64,000 nt of DNA, taken from NCBI RefSeq assembly GCF_000757885.1, contig NZ_JQCR01000003.1:1426001-1490000 (forward strand), in the 5' to 3' direction. The position numbers and the translations under genes were made by a program. The stretch comes from Paenibacillus wynnii (GTDB lineage Bacteria; Bacillota; Bacilli; Paenibacillales; Paenibacillaceae). Below the pieces are notes generated by a model. The model was not told the origin of the DNA. It worked only from the letters and a program-made list of their open reading frames with translations, and did no database searches. Positions 5 to 7,972 of the stretch are shown here, piece by piece (positions within the stretch are counted from its first letter, which is position 1; every line of letters starts with the position of its first letter).

Positions 5-87
5 AACTAAACTGCCCGTTACTTCAATGAAAAAAGCAGACTGCCGTTGCAATCTGCTCACTCAGCTATCGTTTCCCGTTAGTTGAA
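5..87. repeat. Structured dispersed repeat, copy A
   Basis: First of five related 80-90 bp elements in the leftmost 6 kb. It begins with AACTAAACTGCCCGTTA and ends with GCTATCGTTTCCCGTTAGTT. The centre forms a hairpin (AGCAGA...TCTGCT, allowing the inner CTGC/GCAA mispairs). It differs from copy B (1124-1207) at only two positions near the right end. It lies upstream of the hydrolase gene. It shows no open reading frame and no T-run to suggest an ordinary terminator. Confidence 0.8.
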
Positions 88-213
88 CAAGCACGCTTTC
101 TTTTATTACACAATATCGTCGTACTGCGTAATAAATAACCAATTGAATATTTAAAGATTCTATTTTACATGGTAAAATTTGAAAGCAGTTCAATATAGAA
201 AGGAAGTTTATTA

Positions 214-993
214 ATGAAAGAGTTTTTTGTTAAAACAGCGAATTGTATGCTTCGTTATAATGATTTCCCTGGTGAGCAAACACCCATTTTATTTATTCAC
301 GGTCTTGGATGTGCTAGCTCGTTTGATTATCCGCAAGTAGCAACTCAGGAAGTACTAAGAAATCACCGTTGTATTTTAGTTGACCTTTTAGGTGCTGGTT
401 ATAGTGATAAACCAGATAACTCTGACTTCAATTACACAGTCAGCGATCATGCAGAATATCTTGCGGAATTTGTTACATCCATAGGACTGGAATCTTTTGT
501 CTTATTCGGTCACAGTCTAGGAGGAGCCGTAGCACTGTCTTTAGCAACTAAATGCCGAGAACATATCGATAGAATAATTTTGAGTGAAGCAAATTTAGAC
601 AGAAGCAGCATAGGCTCAACCAGCAAGTATATTGCAGATTTTGATATGCACGATTTTCTAGAAAATGAATTTAGCAAATTGGTACAAGATAGCCGGACAA
701 GCGGAAACCAAATGTGGGCAGCAGCCTTATCTTCTTGGTCATCAAAAGCAGCCTATCTCATATCTAAATCAGCGGTAAAAGGAGAAGAACCATCATGGAG
801 AGAGAAACTGTACTCTCTCGATTGTCCTAAAACCTTTATCTTTGGAGAAAACTCATTACCAGATTCAGATATGGAGGTACTTAGCACACACAATATTAAT
901 ATCGAAATTGTAAAAAATGCTGGGCACTCTATGGCTTGGGAGAACCCAAAAGGATTAGCTAAAGCAATTGAAAAAGGCTTACAAACAAAATGA
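214..993 (+). CDS. Alpha/beta hydrolase family protein
   Basis: A 259-residue alpha/beta-hydrolase-fold protein, probably a cytoplasmic esterase, lipase or C-C hydrolase of unknown substrate. The oxyanion-hole segment FIHGLG is near residue 28. The nucleophile elbow GHSLGG (catalytic Ser) is near residue 100. The C-terminal histidine lies in AGHSMAW near residue 240, with an acid supplied between. No signal peptide is seen. An AAAGGAAG ribosome site sits about 8 bases before the ATG. It is a single-gene unit with a hairpin terminator behind it, and it is flanked by two nearly identical copies of the dispersed repeat in the same orientation, so it may have moved with them. Fold assignment is firm; substrate is unknown. 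Confidence 0.9.
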   Translation: MKEFFVKTANCMLRYNDFPGEQTPILFIHGLGCASSFDYPQVATQEVLRNHRCILVDLLGAGYSDKPDNSDFNYTVSDHAEYLAEFVTSIGLESFVLFGHSLGGAVALSLATKCREHIDRIILSEANLDRSSIGSTSKYIADFDMHDFLENEFSKLVQDSRTSGNQMWAAALSSWSSKAAYLISKSAVKGEEPSWREKLYSLDCPKTFIFGENSLPDSDMEVLSTHNINIEIVKNAGHSMAWENPKGLAKAIEKGLQTK

Positions 994-1042
994 ACATACA
1001 TAACAGTTGATTTTGAAACAGCTAATTATAGGCATTGATTAA

Positions 1043-1076
1043 ATCAAAAGCCTAAAGGCTGTTTTTCTCTTTTGAT
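1043..1076 (+). terminator. Hairpin terminator after hydrolase
   Basis: ATCAAAAG (1043-1050) pairs with CTTTTGAT (1069-1076) around an inner AGCC/GGCT hairpin followed by five T residues, 50 bases after the hydrolase stop codon. Confidence 0.6.
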
Positions 1077-1123
1077 GCACAGTTTGTGTCAAATGCGACA
1101 TAAAACCTCCACTTATCTTGTTC

Positions 1124-1207
1124 AACTAAACTGCCCGTTACTTCAATGAAAAAAGCAGACTGCCGTTGCAATCTGCTCACTCAGCTATCGTGTCCCGTTA
1201 GTTTAAT
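1124..1207. repeat. Structured dispersed repeat, copy B
   Basis: Nearly identical to copy A (two differences in about 83 bases) and in the same orientation 1.1 kb away. Its right terminal GTTTAA overlaps and supplies the TAA stop codon of the minus-strand reductase gene that ends at 1203. Confidence 0.8.
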
Positions 1208-2144
1208 GATTATTTGAAATAAACTTGGAAATCGCTTGTTTCTCAAGTTCGTCCCAATGGGGTGTCGCAATGTTTAATTGTTGTTTCAACTTATCGAACG
1301 AATCAAACAAAGCTGCAATTTCGCCGTAAGATCCATTCACCAATTTCATAAACGGTAATTTATGCATTATTTTTAGACCATAGTATACACTCTGTCTGTG
1401 TTTTCGAATAAAGTTAACTTGATTTGCAGGAGTGATAGTATAACCTAATTTTTCTAATATTTGAAACCCCTCGTCCATTACTGATATAGCTTGCTTTAAT
1501 AGCTTCTTGTCCTTAGATACTTTTTTTAAATCACCATCGTAAAGATAACCAACAGAATTCAAAGCTACTATTGAGACGATATGACTTTTGAGCCAAGCAT
1601 CCATATCATCATGATAAGCTAATTTAAACTTAACATGTTTAAACGCATTTTCTAGTAAAGGCTTTATTGTGATCTCGCCGTCAAGACTGCCAAGTAGCAG
1701 TTGTCCACCTCCGCGTAGGCAAATAATGCGGCCGCTCTCTTCTCGGAGTCCTCCGCTAAGCTGAAATCCGAAGATTACATTTTTTGTCATGGCGCTCTTT
1801 TCCTGAAGAATATTTCGCATCCCATGTGCATCGGCATTATTACCGACAAGAACAATATTCTGACTCTGATTCTCAGCTAGAATAGGCAGCACGGATGGGA
1901 AATCATTGTATTTCATTACAACAAAAATGAGATCATAAAGATCATCAGGTTGAAGCTCATGGATGACTTTTACTTCATCGATAGTGTTTTTATGCTGGAA
2001 ATAATGGCGAATGACAAGTCCGTCTTTCTTCAATTGTTCAGCACGCTTCCCTCTGGCAAGTACTGTGACATCATTACCCCCGCGCACTAGAGCATGAGCA
2101 AGATAACTTCCTTGAACTCCGGCGCCAAAAACTAATATCCTCAT
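1203..2144 (-). CDS. Ketopantoate reductase (ApbA/PanE)-like oxidoreductase
   Basis: A 313-residue NADP-binding enzyme of the ketopantoate reductase family. The N-terminal Rossmann motif GAGVQGSYLA fits GxGxxG, followed by helical C-terminal domain sequence. Members reduce 2-dehydropantoate to pantoate in pantothenate synthesis, but paralogues beside TetR genes often have other, undefined 2-ketoacid substrates, and no panB/panC is nearby. The ATG at 2144 is chosen because it follows AGAGGGGATATCAC and the protein then begins MRILVFGAG. An upstream in-frame ATG at 2189 would add 15 non-conserved residues. It is transcribed divergently from the TetR gene, suggesting control by it. The stop codon is supplied by the dispersed repeat. 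Confidence 0.85.
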   Translation of the reverse strand: MRILVFGAGVQGSYLAHALVRGGNDVTVLARGKRAEQLKKDGLVIRHYFQHKNTIDEVKVIHELQPDDLYDLIFVVMKYNDFPSVLPILAENQSQNIVLVGNNADAHGMRNILQEKSAMTKNVIFGFQLSGGLREESGRIICLRGGGQLLLGSLDGEITIKPLLENAFKHVKFKLAYHDDMDAWLKSHIVSIVALNSVGYLYDGDLKKVSKDKKLLKQAISVMDEGFQILEKLGYTITPANQVNFIRKHRQSVYYGLKIMHKLPFMKLVNGSYGEIAALFDSFDKLKQQLNIATPHWDELEKQAISKFISNNH

Positions 2145-2250
2145 TGTGATATCCCCTCTATTTTTTAACGATTGTTGTATTTTGACCATTTGTTTAATAA
2201 AGTAAGATTACCAGCATCTCTAACAAGTATCCATCGCTAGATCTATCGGT

Positions 2251-2304: not shown

Positions 2305-2871
2305 ATGGATAGAAGAATAAAAAAAAACCAAGTTGCCATTATGAATGCATTAATTCATTTGATCGGAGAAAAAGATTTTGACAAAATAACGATTAATGAA
2401 ATCGCAGAGCGTGCTGATGTAAATCGAGGAACCATTTATTCGCATTACTCTGACAAATACGATCTATTGGATAAGTGCCTAGAGGCTCAACTGTACCATT
2501 TGATCGAAAGTTGTTCCTCAGTGGATGAAACAGAACCTTATCCATCTAAGTCTTCATTGCTCCGTACGCTTGGACAAATGGAGAAGAATGCTCTCTTTTA
2601 TAGGAATTTATTAAGCAACAAAGGCATTCCTTCCTTCAGAAACCACTTACAAAAAATGATGACTAATCAAGTAATGGAACAAATCGTTGAAAGCAATTTA
2701 AGCCTAAATGAGTTGAGTAAAGATATATTAGTACAATTTTTGAGTTCGGCGATTGTCGGAGTGATTGAATGGTGGTTAACCCAACCAATGCCCTGTTCTG
2801 TAGAAGAGATAACTGAACAGTTATGGTCACTGCTCGAACAGAATCAGATGATTCTCCGCTCTGAATCTTAA
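2305..2871 (+). CDS. TetR/AcrR family transcriptional regulator
   Basis: A 188-residue TetR-type repressor. The N-terminal helix-turn-helix spans residues 5-50, with the characteristic ITINEIAERADVNRGTIYSHY recognition region, followed by a mostly helical ligand-binding domain ending near residue 180. The ATG follows AAAAAGGGGTG with 5-6 bases of spacing. It is divergent from the ketopantoate-reductase-like gene with a 160-base intergenic region, the usual arrangement for a local autoregulated repressor. Its effector cannot be predicted. It is followed within 10 bases by repeat copy C, whose hairpin could end the transcript. Confidence 0.92.
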   Translation: MDRRIKKNQVAIMNALIHLIGEKDFDKITINEIAERADVNRGTIYSHYSDKYDLLDKCLEAQLYHLIESCSSVDETEPYPSKSSLLRTLGQMEKNALFYRNLLSNKGIPSFRNHLQKMMTNQVMEQIVESNLSLNELSKDILVQFLSSAIVGVIEWWLTQPMPCSVEEITEQLWSLLEQNQMILRSES

Positions 2872-2877
2872 TTACGC

Positions 2878-2958
2878 TATCCTGCCCGTTAGCGGAACAG
2901 GCTGTCGAATTATCGACAGCCTGTTGTCCATTTCACTATCGTGTCTCGTTAGTTTAAT
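2878..2958. repeat. Structured dispersed repeat, copy C
   Basis: Ends CTATCCTGCCCGTTAG and CTATCGTGTCTCGTTAGTTTAAT match the family. The interior is replaced by a perfect 13-bp stem (AACAGGCTGTCGA / TCGACAGCCTGTT) with an ATTA loop, unlike the stems of copies A and B. It sits between the convergent TetR and beta-lactamase-like genes, where it may act as a bidirectional terminator. Confidence 0.8.
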
Positions 2959-2984: not shown

Positions 2985-5126
2985 TTACTGCGCGGAAATC
3001 TCGAACTTCGTGCCGGCATCTCCGGCGAATACAATCGATCCTCCCGCGGGCAGTTCGACCTGATCCTTGCCTCCGATGACACTAAAGTAGATGCATGTTC
3101 CCTTCGCATCATATACGGCGAAGGAGGCATTCGAGGACATGTTCACCTTCATGATCTTGCCCACGTCTTTGTCGCTTATCGTATACCATTGGGCGTATCC
3201 GCTCGACGGAATCGTAACGATTGACTTCTTAGCGAAATTGATGGGCTTCACAGTGTCCTCGTTCACTAAGATTCTTCCACCTTGATCCAAGTACTCAACA
3301 CCGTCATGCGTAAAGAACGTTAAGCCTGAGAGATCCCGACCATTCATTCCCGGAATTTGCAATTCGGATACTGCTGTATTAGGTCCTGTTATTCGCTTAT
3401 CCAACACGTACCCCGGTAATTGTGTCGACATATTCAATTGGATGGGCGGCAACAACAAATAAACGAGCGACGTATACTTCTCATTCAGCAGATAATACTT
3501 CTTGCCGTCGCGCTGATTCCATGCCTTTATTGTCTTTGTCGGAAGATCTTGGGGCTGGAGCTTCTCGGCATTGTACACTGACACAGCCGTCTGCCCAAGA
3601 CCCGGCAATGAAGCGTATTGACGAATCCATAAGTAGGTGCGGTCATTCTCCTCTTTCACGAAGCTGATCATCACATTCCCATCCGCACTCCGGAACGTGC
3701 CGTCCGCCGAATACACGTAAAACTGGGTTGGATTATTGGGCAACTGCTCAAAAGTGACGGACATGACGCCACCTTCGGTAATATCAATGTTAATCGTTGT
3801 ACTCGTCGCGCCATAGATTCCCGAATACTGCAGCACGGACTCCGGCATATCAGCCTTTACCGGAGTGCCGTACGACTTCTCAGGCTTGAATTCTGCAATT
3901 CTCCCTTTCTCCTTCAGCGCCTGAAGCAGGATTTCGTTCGCCAAAAGCTGGGCGTTCGTGCTGACCCCGCCGGAAGTGACGACAGCTGCCGCCATGTCCT
4001 GCTCGGGAAACACAACGAGCGACGAGTGATAGAGTTGCGTGTCCCCACCTTTGGTCAGCGCCTTCATCCCATATTCACTGAAGGGAAACAGATCGACGCT
4101 GTCCCAGCCGAGACCGTATCCGATTGAGTTGTCCGCATCGTCAGGCCACAAAGGCGTCTTGTACTCGTCTTGCGCCATGGCCGCAGCCGAATTGCCGGAC
4201 AAGACTTCTTCCGCTTCCCCCGTGAAAATTTGCGAGAATCGAGCCAAATCTTCCGCCGTGGAATAAATGCCTCCCGTTCCGATCACGTTGACCGTCTCGT
4301 TGGGAAGTTGTCCTGTGTAGGTAGGATAATAGAGTCCCGCCATCTTCGCTGTGTTCGGAGAATCGAGCGGCGTTTCCGTATTGGCCATACCCAGAGGTTC
4401 CGTTATAAATCGATGGATATAAGAGGTAAAGTCCATCCCGCTGACATGCTCGACCAGAATCTCGGCCAGCGTAAATCCGTCATTGCAGTACACAGAGTAA
4501 GCACCCGGGTCTGCCTTCAAGGTCTGTCCAGCCAGTTGCTTCAGCAGTGTGTCGTGGGCGTAAGTATCGTTATCTTCGAATAAAAAGGCGTCCTTCAGCG
4601 ATGATCCGTTCAGACCGGAAGAATGATTCAGCAGCATGCGCGGCGTAATCTGCTTGTAGCGTTCATCCTTCATCGTAAACTTGGGGATATACTTGAAGAC
4701 CTGCGTATCGAGATCGATTTTCCCTTGGTCGACCAGCTGCATGACGGCAACCGTGGTAAACATTTTACTCGTCGAGCCGATCCCGTACATCGTGTCTTTC
4801 GTGAGCGGCTTCTGTCCCTTCTCATCATTCTTGCCGACTTGGCCGGATACGACGATGCTGCCATGATCGATAATAGCGTACTGCACGCTGTTCGTGCCGT
4901 AAGTTCTCGTGAGGTGATCGGCCTTCTCCTTTGCATCTTTCCGGGTTACTTCGTAGGTGATCAAAGCCTCGTTCGAAGGCGAGTCCATTGCCGCCGTTGG
5001 CACGTTTAACGAATTCAGCGCCACTGCCGTGTTCTGCGTCTCTACCGGTGCATTGTTGTCATTGCAGGAGGTTAGCAGTAGACATGAAGATAGCACAGCT
5101 CCCATTATCCATCGACTTTTTATCAT
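2985..5126 (-). CDS. Serine beta-lactamase/penicillin-binding-like lipoprotein
   Basis: A 713-residue secreted serine hydrolase of the class C beta-lactamase / esterase / D-aminopeptidase superfamily. A lipoprotein signal is present: KSR, then a hydrophobic run, then the lipobox LLTSC (Cys about residue 21). The catalytic domain covers roughly residues 60-405 with STSK (SxxK, about 118), YCN (YxN, about 211) and a KGG box (about 361). About 300 further residues form C-terminal beta-rich domains without a recognised motif. Being lipid-anchored, it probably acts on extracellular esters, D-peptides or cell wall; resistance is not implied. AGGAGAGG precedes the ATG. It looks more GC-rich than its AT-rich neighbours, which hints at separate origin. 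Confidence 0.88.
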   Translation of the reverse strand: MIKSRWIMGAVLSSCLLLTSCNDNNAPVETQNTAVALNSLNVPTAAMDSPSNEALITYEVTRKDAKEKADHLTRTYGTNSVQYAIIDHGSIVVSGQVGKNDEKGQKPLTKDTMYGIGSTSKMFTTVAVMQLVDQGKIDLDTQVFKYIPKFTMKDERYKQITPRMLLNHSSGLNGSSLKDAFLFEDNDTYAHDTLLKQLAGQTLKADPGAYSVYCNDGFTLAEILVEHVSGMDFTSYIHRFITEPLGMANTETPLDSPNTAKMAGLYYPTYTGQLPNETVNVIGTGGIYSTAEDLARFSQIFTGEAEEVLSGNSAAAMAQDEYKTPLWPDDADNSIGYGLGWDSVDLFPFSEYGMKALTKGGDTQLYHSSLVVFPEQDMAAAVVTSGGVSTNAQLLANEILLQALKEKGRIAEFKPEKSYGTPVKADMPESVLQYSGIYGATSTTINIDITEGGVMSVTFEQLPNNPTQFYVYSADGTFRSADGNVMISFVKEENDRTYLWIRQYASLPGLGQTAVSVYNAEKLQPQDLPTKTIKAWNQRDGKKYYLLNEKYTSLVYLLLPPIQLNMSTQLPGYVLDKRITGPNTAVSELQIPGMNGRDLSGLTFFTHDGVEYLDQGGRILVNEDTVKPINFAKKSIVTIPSSGYAQWYTISDKDVGKIMKVNMSSNASFAVYDAKGTCIYFSVIGGKDQVELPAGGSIVFAGDAGTKFEISAQ

Positions 5127-5279: not shown

Positions 5280-5786
5280 TTATACTATCCTGCCCGTTTG
5301 CGCAGAGAAGGCAGCCAATTTTTGTGTCGGCTGCCTCATGTGTTGCTGAGCTATAGTTTCCCGATAGCTTAATAGTTCATTCAAAACCTTAATGATTTTT
5401 TCCTTAGTTGGTGGCAAACGGTTTTCAGCACCATCTGGATGTAACGGTTCACCCCAAGTAAAACCATCGCCTTCGTATCTTGGTATGAGATGCATGTGAT
5501 AATGTGTCAAATCCTTGAATTTCCCACCATCCTGACTCACTCTAATACCATCTGGTTTATATAAGGATTTTAAGACAGTTGACAGCATTTTAGAGGCGTC
5601 CATGATGCTGTAAGCAGTTTCTTGGTCGATTTCATCGACATCCAAGTAGTGTTTTTTAGGAAGGATTAGCGTGTGCCCTTCATTGAATGGAGCAATATCA
5701 AGAACACAAGTAATTAGTTCGTTTTCAAATATTATATTCAAATTAGGTTCAATTCCATTTGCAATCCTACATCCCAAGCATTCCAC
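5280..5786 (-). CDS. HIT family hydrolase with repeat-encoded C-terminus
   Basis: A 168-residue histidine-triad nucleotide-binding protein. The HIT motif HYHMHLIPRY (HxHxH) is near residue 95, preceded by the conserved NEGHTLILPKKH segment near residue 40. Family members hydrolyse nucleoside phosphoramidates or dinucleoside polyphosphates in the cytoplasm. GTG at 5786 is the start, with GGGGTGA four bases upstream. The last 30 or so residues (from SYRETIAQQ onward) are encoded entirely by repeat copy D, so the original C-terminus was replaced or extended by insertion of that element. The catalytic core is complete, so the protein is probably still functional. Confidence 0.88.
   Translation of the reverse strand: MECLGCRIANGIEPNLNIIFENELITCVLDIAPFNEGHTLILPKKHYLDVDEIDQETAYSIMDASKMLSTVLKSLYKPDGIRVSQDGGKFKDLTHYHMHLIPRYEGDGFTWGEPLHPDGAENRLPPTKEKIIKVLNELLSYRETIAQQHMRQPTQKLAAFSAQTGRIV
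5284..5373. repeat. Structured dispersed repeat, copy D (inside HIT gene 3' end)
   Basis: CTATCCTGCCCGTTTG at the left and CTATAGTTTCCCGATAGCTTAAT at the right are diverged versions of the family ends. The hairpin AGGCAGCC / GGCTGCCT (8 bp) has a third stem sequence. It is read through as the C-terminal codons of the HIT protein on the minus strand. Confidence 0.75.
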
Positions 5787-5846
5787 AGCATCACCCCGAT
5801 AAAAAGATTTGGTTGTATTTACAGATAATTCGATTACCCTATTAAT

Positions 5847-5928
5847 TTATCCTGCACTTTACTTCAATATAAAAAGCAGATTGCAATTGCAGTCTGCTCT
5901 TTACGCTATCGTTTCCCGAAAGTTGAAT
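5847..5928. repeat. Structured dispersed repeat, copy E
   Basis: TTATCCTGCACTTTACTTCAAT at the left and GCTATCGTTTCCCGAAAGTTGAAT at the right. The central stem AGCAGATTGC / GCAGTCTGCT pairs through 10 bp with one G-T pair and an AATT loop. Relative to copies A/B the stem has changed on both arms but pairs better. Confidence 0.75.
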
Positions 5929-7564: not shown

Positions 7565-7735
7565 CTCATCCTCTCTCTTCGAGGCTTACGGGGTTAGCTG
7601 ACGGATTCGGGCAGCGAGATTGCCCTACCTTGCTATAGAGACTTTTCAGGTCTCAGCAAGGATTCACCCCATGTGAGCGGCAGCATCAGAGCGAAAGCCG
7701 CATTCACCATTGGTTCCCCCGTTCCCATTGTCGGA
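7565..7735 (-). promoter_or_regulatory. c-di-AMP riboswitch (ydaO/yuaA leader)
   Basis: The minus strand carries the ydaO/yuaA aptamer hallmarks in order: CGGGGGAACC, GGGGTGAATCC, a hairpin (TTGCT...AGCAA), GGTAGGGC, GCCCGAATCCGTCAGCTAACC and CGTAAGC, then GAGAGGATGA. The family binds cyclic di-AMP and normally switches off genes for cell-wall hydrolases or potassium/osmolyte transport by terminator formation. The terminator at 7511-7546 fits this. No intact gene of those types follows; the only downstream sequences are a small broken frame and the toxin/immunity pair, so the regulated gene seems to have been lost or exchanged. Confidence 0.92.
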
Positions 7736-7972
7736 ATTCAGCCATTTGAGAAAAGTTATATTACATTCGGTTGTTGATTTGAATCTTACGTCTGTGGGCG
7801 TTTAATGTAAAACGTTATTGATGACAAAAAAAGCCAAAAATGATACTCCTTCACGAATGAAAGCGCACTCTTTGGTTTCGCTCTTAAGCAGTCGATGATT
7901 TGCTTATTCTTGCTCAGTTTTTCACAAGCTGTCCCATTAGGTCAAAATCAAACACAGCATCTGATATTATAT

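Follow-up and report, generated by a model that had tools for sequence, protein, structure and literature searches.

In a 64,000-nucleotide window of the 5.99 Mb genome of Paenibacillus wynnii (G000:C3:1426001-1490000), five copies of a structured repeat lie between successive genes, and one of them supplies the last 28 residues of a protein with a HIT domain. These repeats are very probably the recombination sites of an integron-like gene cassette system, in which case the additional residues would stem from the loss of a stop codon at a cassette joint. Here, we describe the HIT gene and its tail, the architecture of the sites and of the arrays that they form in related bacteria, the recombinase that resides in such arrays, and the signs of module movement, and we compare the system with several known ones. 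The features of the window are collected in Table 1.

Table 1. Repeats, cassettes and HIT gene features in the window
Feature	Position	Strand	Basis
Repeat A	5..87	+	covariance model R1
Repeat B	1124..1206	+	covariance model R1
Repeat C	2875..2957	+	covariance model R1
Repeat D, core - hairpin GGCAGCC..GGCTGCC - core	5283..5372	+	covariance model R1
Repeat E, bounding the HIT cassette upstream	5845..5927	+	covariance model R1, identity with G070/G111
Cassette A-B; alpha/beta hydrolase ORF 214-993 on +, opposite to the usual gene strand	77..1140	.	second copy in genome
Ketopantoate-reductase-like gene (PF02558), cassette B-C; stop codon in the edge of repeat B	1203..2189	-	
TetR gene, near the ketopantoate-reductase-like gene	2305..2871	+	
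Beta-lactamase-fold serine hydrolase (PF00144), cassette C-D	2985..5126	-	
ORF of the HIT-domain protein in cassette D-E (168 aa, GTG start)	5280..5786	-	ORF list, Pfam
Last 28 codons and stop of the HIT ORF, from the repeat D hairpin module and the next cassette's start arm	5280..5366	-	codon-by-codon reading, homologue comparison
Joint codon TAT, HIT residue 141	5364..5366	-	orthologue DNA, core counts

The HIT protein and its repeat-encoded tail

The original prediction held that the HIT gene reads through repeat D, that about 30 C-terminal residues derive from the element, and that the HIT motif upstream is intact, and all of this is borne out. The ORF crosses repeat D with the codons CTA TTA AGC TAT CGG GAA at the repeat edge, so that 28 residues (141-168; 29 if S140 is counted) are element-encoded, and its stop codon (5280-5282) lies just beyond the far edge of the repeat. 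The Pfam family PF01230 matches residues 17-105 (E 3.8e-15), and the three histidines of the triad (H95, H97, H99) are invariant in an alignment of 19 HIT sequences.

Some HIT-family match is found in 143 of 150 relatives. Residues 1-139 of the window protein align at 92-93% identity with 140-aa orthologues that end in ..LNQLFN* or ..LNELFN*; the closest of these, from the genomes designated G070 (..LNELFN*) and G111 (..LNQLFN*), both terminate after residue 140. Identity at the DNA level (95% over 484 bp with G070 and 88% over 499 bp with G111) reaches ..GAACTATT and then ends, at the edge of repeat D. The repeat boundary is thus where the native HIT C-terminus diverges, as had been anticipated. 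On the side of repeat E, identity with G070 starts within ~9 bp of the edge and that with G111 some 15 bp deeper.

None of the 29 homologous loci fetched (the window's own excluded) carries the tail, and the same set holds no orthologue that has this C-terminus without the repeat. Twenty-one of these homologues are 131-147 residues long, another seven are extended in other ways, to between 164 and 225 residues, and in the remaining one (L038) the frame is broken and the end also lacks the tail. A protein search matched the tail residues to repeat copies outside HIT genes, at two places in genome G018 and one in G012. Because of these matches and the absence of the tail from all 29 loci, we do not regard the tail as a product of chance.

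Two further observations concern the HIT family. The window's genome contains a second HIT gene (G000:C3:1129985-1130395), 84% identical over residues 1-137 and with an open frame of 138 aa. At six HIT loci of relatives (L023-L025, L027-L029), the HIT protein is fused to a tail of ~80 residues resembling the C-terminal part of PD-(D/E)XK transposases; the L023 tail, the only one tested, scores 24.7 bits against PF12784, below the cut-off of 27.4.

Architecture of the sites and their arrays

The covariance model R1 was built on the five repeat copies. In the window's own genome, 17 hits have E values of at most 0.5, opposite-strand echoes counted in, and all ten other genomes tested have hits at E up to 0.1, some of them in long runs of a single orientation (for example, G070:C1:3969562-4001776 and G058:C1:3535773-3632157). 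Rfam has no match at the window repeats. In gene orientation, a complete site consists of a core (TTNAACTAACGGG-AAACGWTAG), a hairpin and a second core (TTNAACTAACGGG-CAGKWTAG). The two cores are direct repeats of one quasi-palindrome, and the hairpin between them differs among sites; of 157 spacers, 60% fold at z below -2 against mononucleotide shuffles. Arm covariation and hairpin tests were run on 161 of 228 complete sites, those scoring under 15 being excluded. We considered the hairpin as a transcription terminator and rejected this role, which was weakly supported (A-runs at 41 and T-runs at 13 of the 161 sites).

A weight matrix derived from array sites found 126 sites in the forward orientation and 15 in the reverse, the reverse ones all incomplete, in ten stretches of six genomes that had been picked for their arrays, and none in one shuffle of each stretch. 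The sites are ~1 kb apart in the arrays of relatives (median interval 1,009 bp, n=88), and 78 of these 88 intervals have their longest ORF on the gene strand. The same holds for 207 of a larger set of 230 intervals, limited to those with a longest ORF of at least 80 aa, the other 23 having theirs on the opposite strand. When modules were delimited by cores with three substitutions allowed, a procedure in which missed cores merge modules, 122 of 262 modules that begin with the AAACG arm were shorter than 200 bp, all 122 then running into the other core, compared with 22 of 380 modules that begin with the CAG arm. One locus (L215) is the same as G018 and was dropped, as were L175 and L179 in some counts.

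One G070 array stretch encodes acetyltransferases, APH-like and chloramphenicol-phosphotransferase-like kinases and a methyltransferase, to which the window cassettes add hydrolases. At HIT loci elsewhere, the matrix detects sites at 1 of 29, and there a half site only; divergent repeat copies are visible by eye beside the HIT gene of G111. The G070 array (G070:C1:3959217-4042041) lies between stretches that can be aligned to the window at 8.0-11.2 kb and 16-26.8 kb, and the arrays may therefore share a chromosomal neighbourhood in both species.

A Xer-like recombinase inside the arrays

Tyrosine recombinases of 281 residues are located inside arrays. The one that we tested has NF040815 XerA as its best profile (188.5 against a cut-off of 220), scores 98.8 bits against the IntI profile TIGR02249 (cut-off 265), and has XerD as its closest solved relative. 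At E<=1e-40, 42 of 150 relatives have matches, including many broken copies and some distant enzymes; the genome of the window has none at this threshold. Across the class, matches at E<=1e-60 were found in 31 of 398 sampled genomes and 19 of 145 genera, with arrays hardly covered for those that are 44-51% identical.

In the named collection, 181 recombinase relatives were found, mostly from Paenibacillus; 80 were retained, and 68 of these 80 loci, some overlapping or from a single genome, were used to look for sites. Around these loci, which were chosen by recombinase and not by sites, 201 sites have one orientation and 2 the other (137 upstream, 64 downstream). In 40 of the 68 loci, a right-half core precedes the recombinase by 57-133 bp, and in 36 a left-half core follows it, so that the recombinase is often found where the short repeats have their hairpin. 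Sites are found in 33 of 42 recombinase-positive genomes versus 59 of 108 negative ones (p 0.009, by a hand count from two lists); the mismatches are these 59 genomes and the 9 of 42 positive ones that have no sites. By eye, the start of the serine hydrolase gene in the window has a look-alike downstream of the recombinase in L133 and L150.

Similar enzymes extend beyond the genus. On the Sporosarcina psychrophila plasmid pSP10-266k (L234), a 48%-identical recombinase, encoded on the strand opposite its neighbour genes, is found amid direct repeats of the same kind together with merA, merR, NUDIX and GNAT genes; a fuzzy core pattern occurs there at 5 places (8 hits, both strands) versus 3 hits in one shuffle. 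Of eight further loci (L238-L245), most of which have a distant recombinase, two contain the core pattern. PMC8138268 links simple tyrosine recombinases outside the Xer subgroup to mobile elements.

We infer that the Xer-like recombinase, which in some arrays lies between two cores and replaces the hairpin, catalyses the exchange of modules, with a crossover within the shared ACGGG. Gene modules would usually hold a single gene or a pair of genes; the next core would often directly follow a gene's 3' end and could then supply its stop codon.

Resemblance to the dif/pdif modules of Acinetobacter (XerCD) is evident in that genes are shuffled as discrete modules between Xer-type sites and two types of module exist. 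In dif modules, which are recombined by the chromosomal XerCD, neighbouring dif sites alternate in orientation. The sites around the recombinase do not alternate (201:2), their cores are direct, and a dedicated recombinase is nearby.

Signs of module movement between arrays and genomes

The window's genome carries cassette A-B a second time, at G000:C3:1196729-1197792; the copies show a single mismatch over 1,064 bp, and their homology breaks at the cores on both sides. Two arrays of this genome have a further module in common, with 22 mismatches over 1,050 bp. Across genomes, four arrays (G001, G012, G070, L218) contain versions of one module that share 96-98.6% identity and have different hairpins to either side. 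We further compared 438 homologous blocks, leaving out those under 250 bp or outside 85-99.3% identity. Although sites make up 2% of the bases in this comparison, 47 blocks end in a site in both partners on the left, 100 on the right, and 11 at both ends. Nine of these 11 pairs, representing four distinct modules, have different hairpins and different flanking DNA around a gene that is 86-99% identical; the right-hand site is kept in 2.

A separate comparison of hairpins included 19 homologous pairs, for 5 of which both hairpins were known; one of the 5 is a duplicate record, three are the module shared by G001, G012, G070 and L218, and the G058-G070 pair keeps its right hairpin (0.89). Hairpins are more than 85% alike in 4 of 15 cases on the right and 2 of 6 on the left, one each coming from the duplicate record. 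The hairpin does not always part from its gene.

Where the 19.9 kb of neighbouring window DNA can be aligned, it is 68-80% identical to G070 (8 segments) and 66-69% to G111 (4 segments), compared with 95% and 88% for the HIT gene, which therefore appears to have moved horizontally. Judging by sequence comparison, cassettes appear to move as single site-bounded units, presumably by recombination.

Among the alternatives, the one that fares best, albeit an unlikely one, is that the repeats are MITE-like transposable elements between genes, repeat D having been inserted at the HIT stop codon and translated. MITEs carry terminal inverted repeats, come with a target-site duplication and are mobilised by a transposase. 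The repeat ends are indeed quasi-palindromic, a recombinase-bearing form of the repeat exists, with the short repeat resembling the recombinase-less form of a core-recombinase-hairpin-core unit, and TAATTG directly follows repeat D as it follows the HIT joint in G070 (by eye, and over 6 bp only). In-frame fusions of MITEs to host genes are also known (PMC10969869). However, simple insertion predicts host DNA that continues across an empty site, and 9 of the 11 module pairs instead differ in hairpins and in the DNA on both sides. The duplication of a 1,064-bp gene module from joint to joint and the uniform orientation of the sites likewise argue against insertion.

Comparison with integrons

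The arrays share with integrons and CALIN a tyrosine recombinase, mobile single-gene cassettes, each with a structured site at the gene 3' end, and the single orientation of these cassettes, with modules of ~1 kb. Nevertheless, it is improbable, even more so than the insertion of MITEs, that they represent integrons proper or classical attC clusters that lack an integrase. IntI (TIGR02249) does not exceed the curated cut-off in any of 150 relatives, where matches below the cut-off were seen, as in all 14 control genomes; the array recombinase also falls far short of this cut-off and is housed in an array module. In integrons, attI and a promoter lie next to the integrase, and cassettes are inserted at attI; here, a right-half core precedes the recombinase in 40 of 68 loci, but sites flank the enzyme on both sides. 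The hairpin here can part from the gene, and both flanking hairpins differ in several module pairs, although not in all. At L039-L042 and other loci, integrase frames of about 260-400 aa match IntI in pieces (about 2-179 and 234-315) with the middle missing; no core sites were present near the L039-L042 integrases at the four loci fetched.

In integrons, the start of a cassette is complementary to its own R'', and the complementary arms of attC fold in single-stranded form. By eye, the 5' arm of the site in the window looked strikingly complementary to the start of its cassette (9 of 9 from A to B). This vanished over 55 pairs, with 3.85 versus 3.74 for shuffled pairs and thus no excess over shuffles, the only controls used. 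Covariation between the site arms was absent from all tests, again with shuffles as the only controls, and attC-like single-strand folding is therefore unsupported. We do not class the system among the integrons, since no match reaches the IntI cut-off and attC complementarity gives no signal. PMC9024848 describes complete classical integrons as extremely rare in Firmicutes, IntegronFinder 2.0 having found one complete integron and a few CALIN in this phylum, and PMC8618304 names Firmicutes among the phyla with integrons.

Probable loss of a stop codon at the cassette joint

Among 207 gene-strand ORFs, 46 stop between -30 and +12 nt from a core, the commonest offsets being +1 (16) and -4 (9), and 2 run more than 30 nt past it, namely, HIT and one doubtful low-complexity ORF. 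The HIT frame corresponds to offset -4: G111, with a core that looks degenerate by eye, reads TTC AAT TAA CTGGGA, and the window reads TTA AGC TAT CGGGAA. In this frame, the usual joint CTAACGGG gives TAA, and the window joint CTATCGGG gives TAT; right-half cores (n=161) have CTAAC in 122 cases and CTATC in 9. One base at the joint (CTATC for CTAAC) thus accounts for the HIT case and can separate a 140- from a 168-residue protein.

Under the cassette reading, the HIT gene would be one module, with T instead of A after CTA at its 3' joint, arising either from a point mutation or from a crossover with a variant module. With TAA changed to TAT, ribosomes would read on across the 90-bp site until they meet a TAA of the following module, and the protein would gain 28 residues that lie outside its HIT domain. 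The HIT tail, by this account, is an accident of a cassette joint at which the stop codon was lost, and it is presumably neutral. The proposal that the gene shows coding capture of a structured repeat accordingly needs to be qualified: the repeat does encode the C-terminus, but capture is only the surface reading of what is a junction between gene cassettes, at or in whose cores 46 of the 207 cassette ORFs stop.

Rickettsia palindromic elements and other in-frame repeats, which are reviewed in PMC10969869, similarly place translated repeat DNA within host proteins. The case at hand differs in being a stop codon loss at a cassette joint rather than repeated in-frame insertion; no recurrence of the Rickettsia kind was seen, HIT being one clear case.

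The least probable reading, that the tail is a selected extension giving the HIT protein a new function, can point to the continuous helix that AlphaFold2 (19 sequences) predicts over residues 121-164, but mean pLDDT drops to about 59-62 over residues 151-168, no fetched homologue has the tail, and its presence follows from one joint base.

A candidate gene-capture system of Bacillales

We lean towards viewing these arrays as a previously undescribed gene-capture system of Bacillales, in which a dedicated Xer-like recombinase is itself an array module, two module types, genes on the one hand and hairpins or the recombinase on the other, share one universal joint within ACGGG, hairpins and genes can shuffle independently, arrays reach integron size and also occur on plasmids (Sporosarcina pSP10-266k, with merA/merR), and protein C-termini are occasionally rewritten. 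Among the matches listed in our search, which covered titles and the starts of abstracts and outside of which most subscription papers and preprints lie, nothing of this kind is described for Paenibacillus or Bacillales. If true, this would explain the repeats and would mean that Paenibacillus, and perhaps other Bacillales, own an integron-like platform, making adaptive-gene shuffling in Gram-positive soil bacteria a directly testable question.

Two minor observations were made in the course of this analysis. The window contains a c-di-AMP riboswitch (ydaO/yuaA leader) at 7568-7753 on the minus strand (99.6 bits). In the G058 arrays, for example in sites with GTTAGCCAT..CATG of the stretches G058a and G058b, an insert of at least some 60 bp seems by eye to recur at the same place inside several sites, perhaps a second element that targets them.
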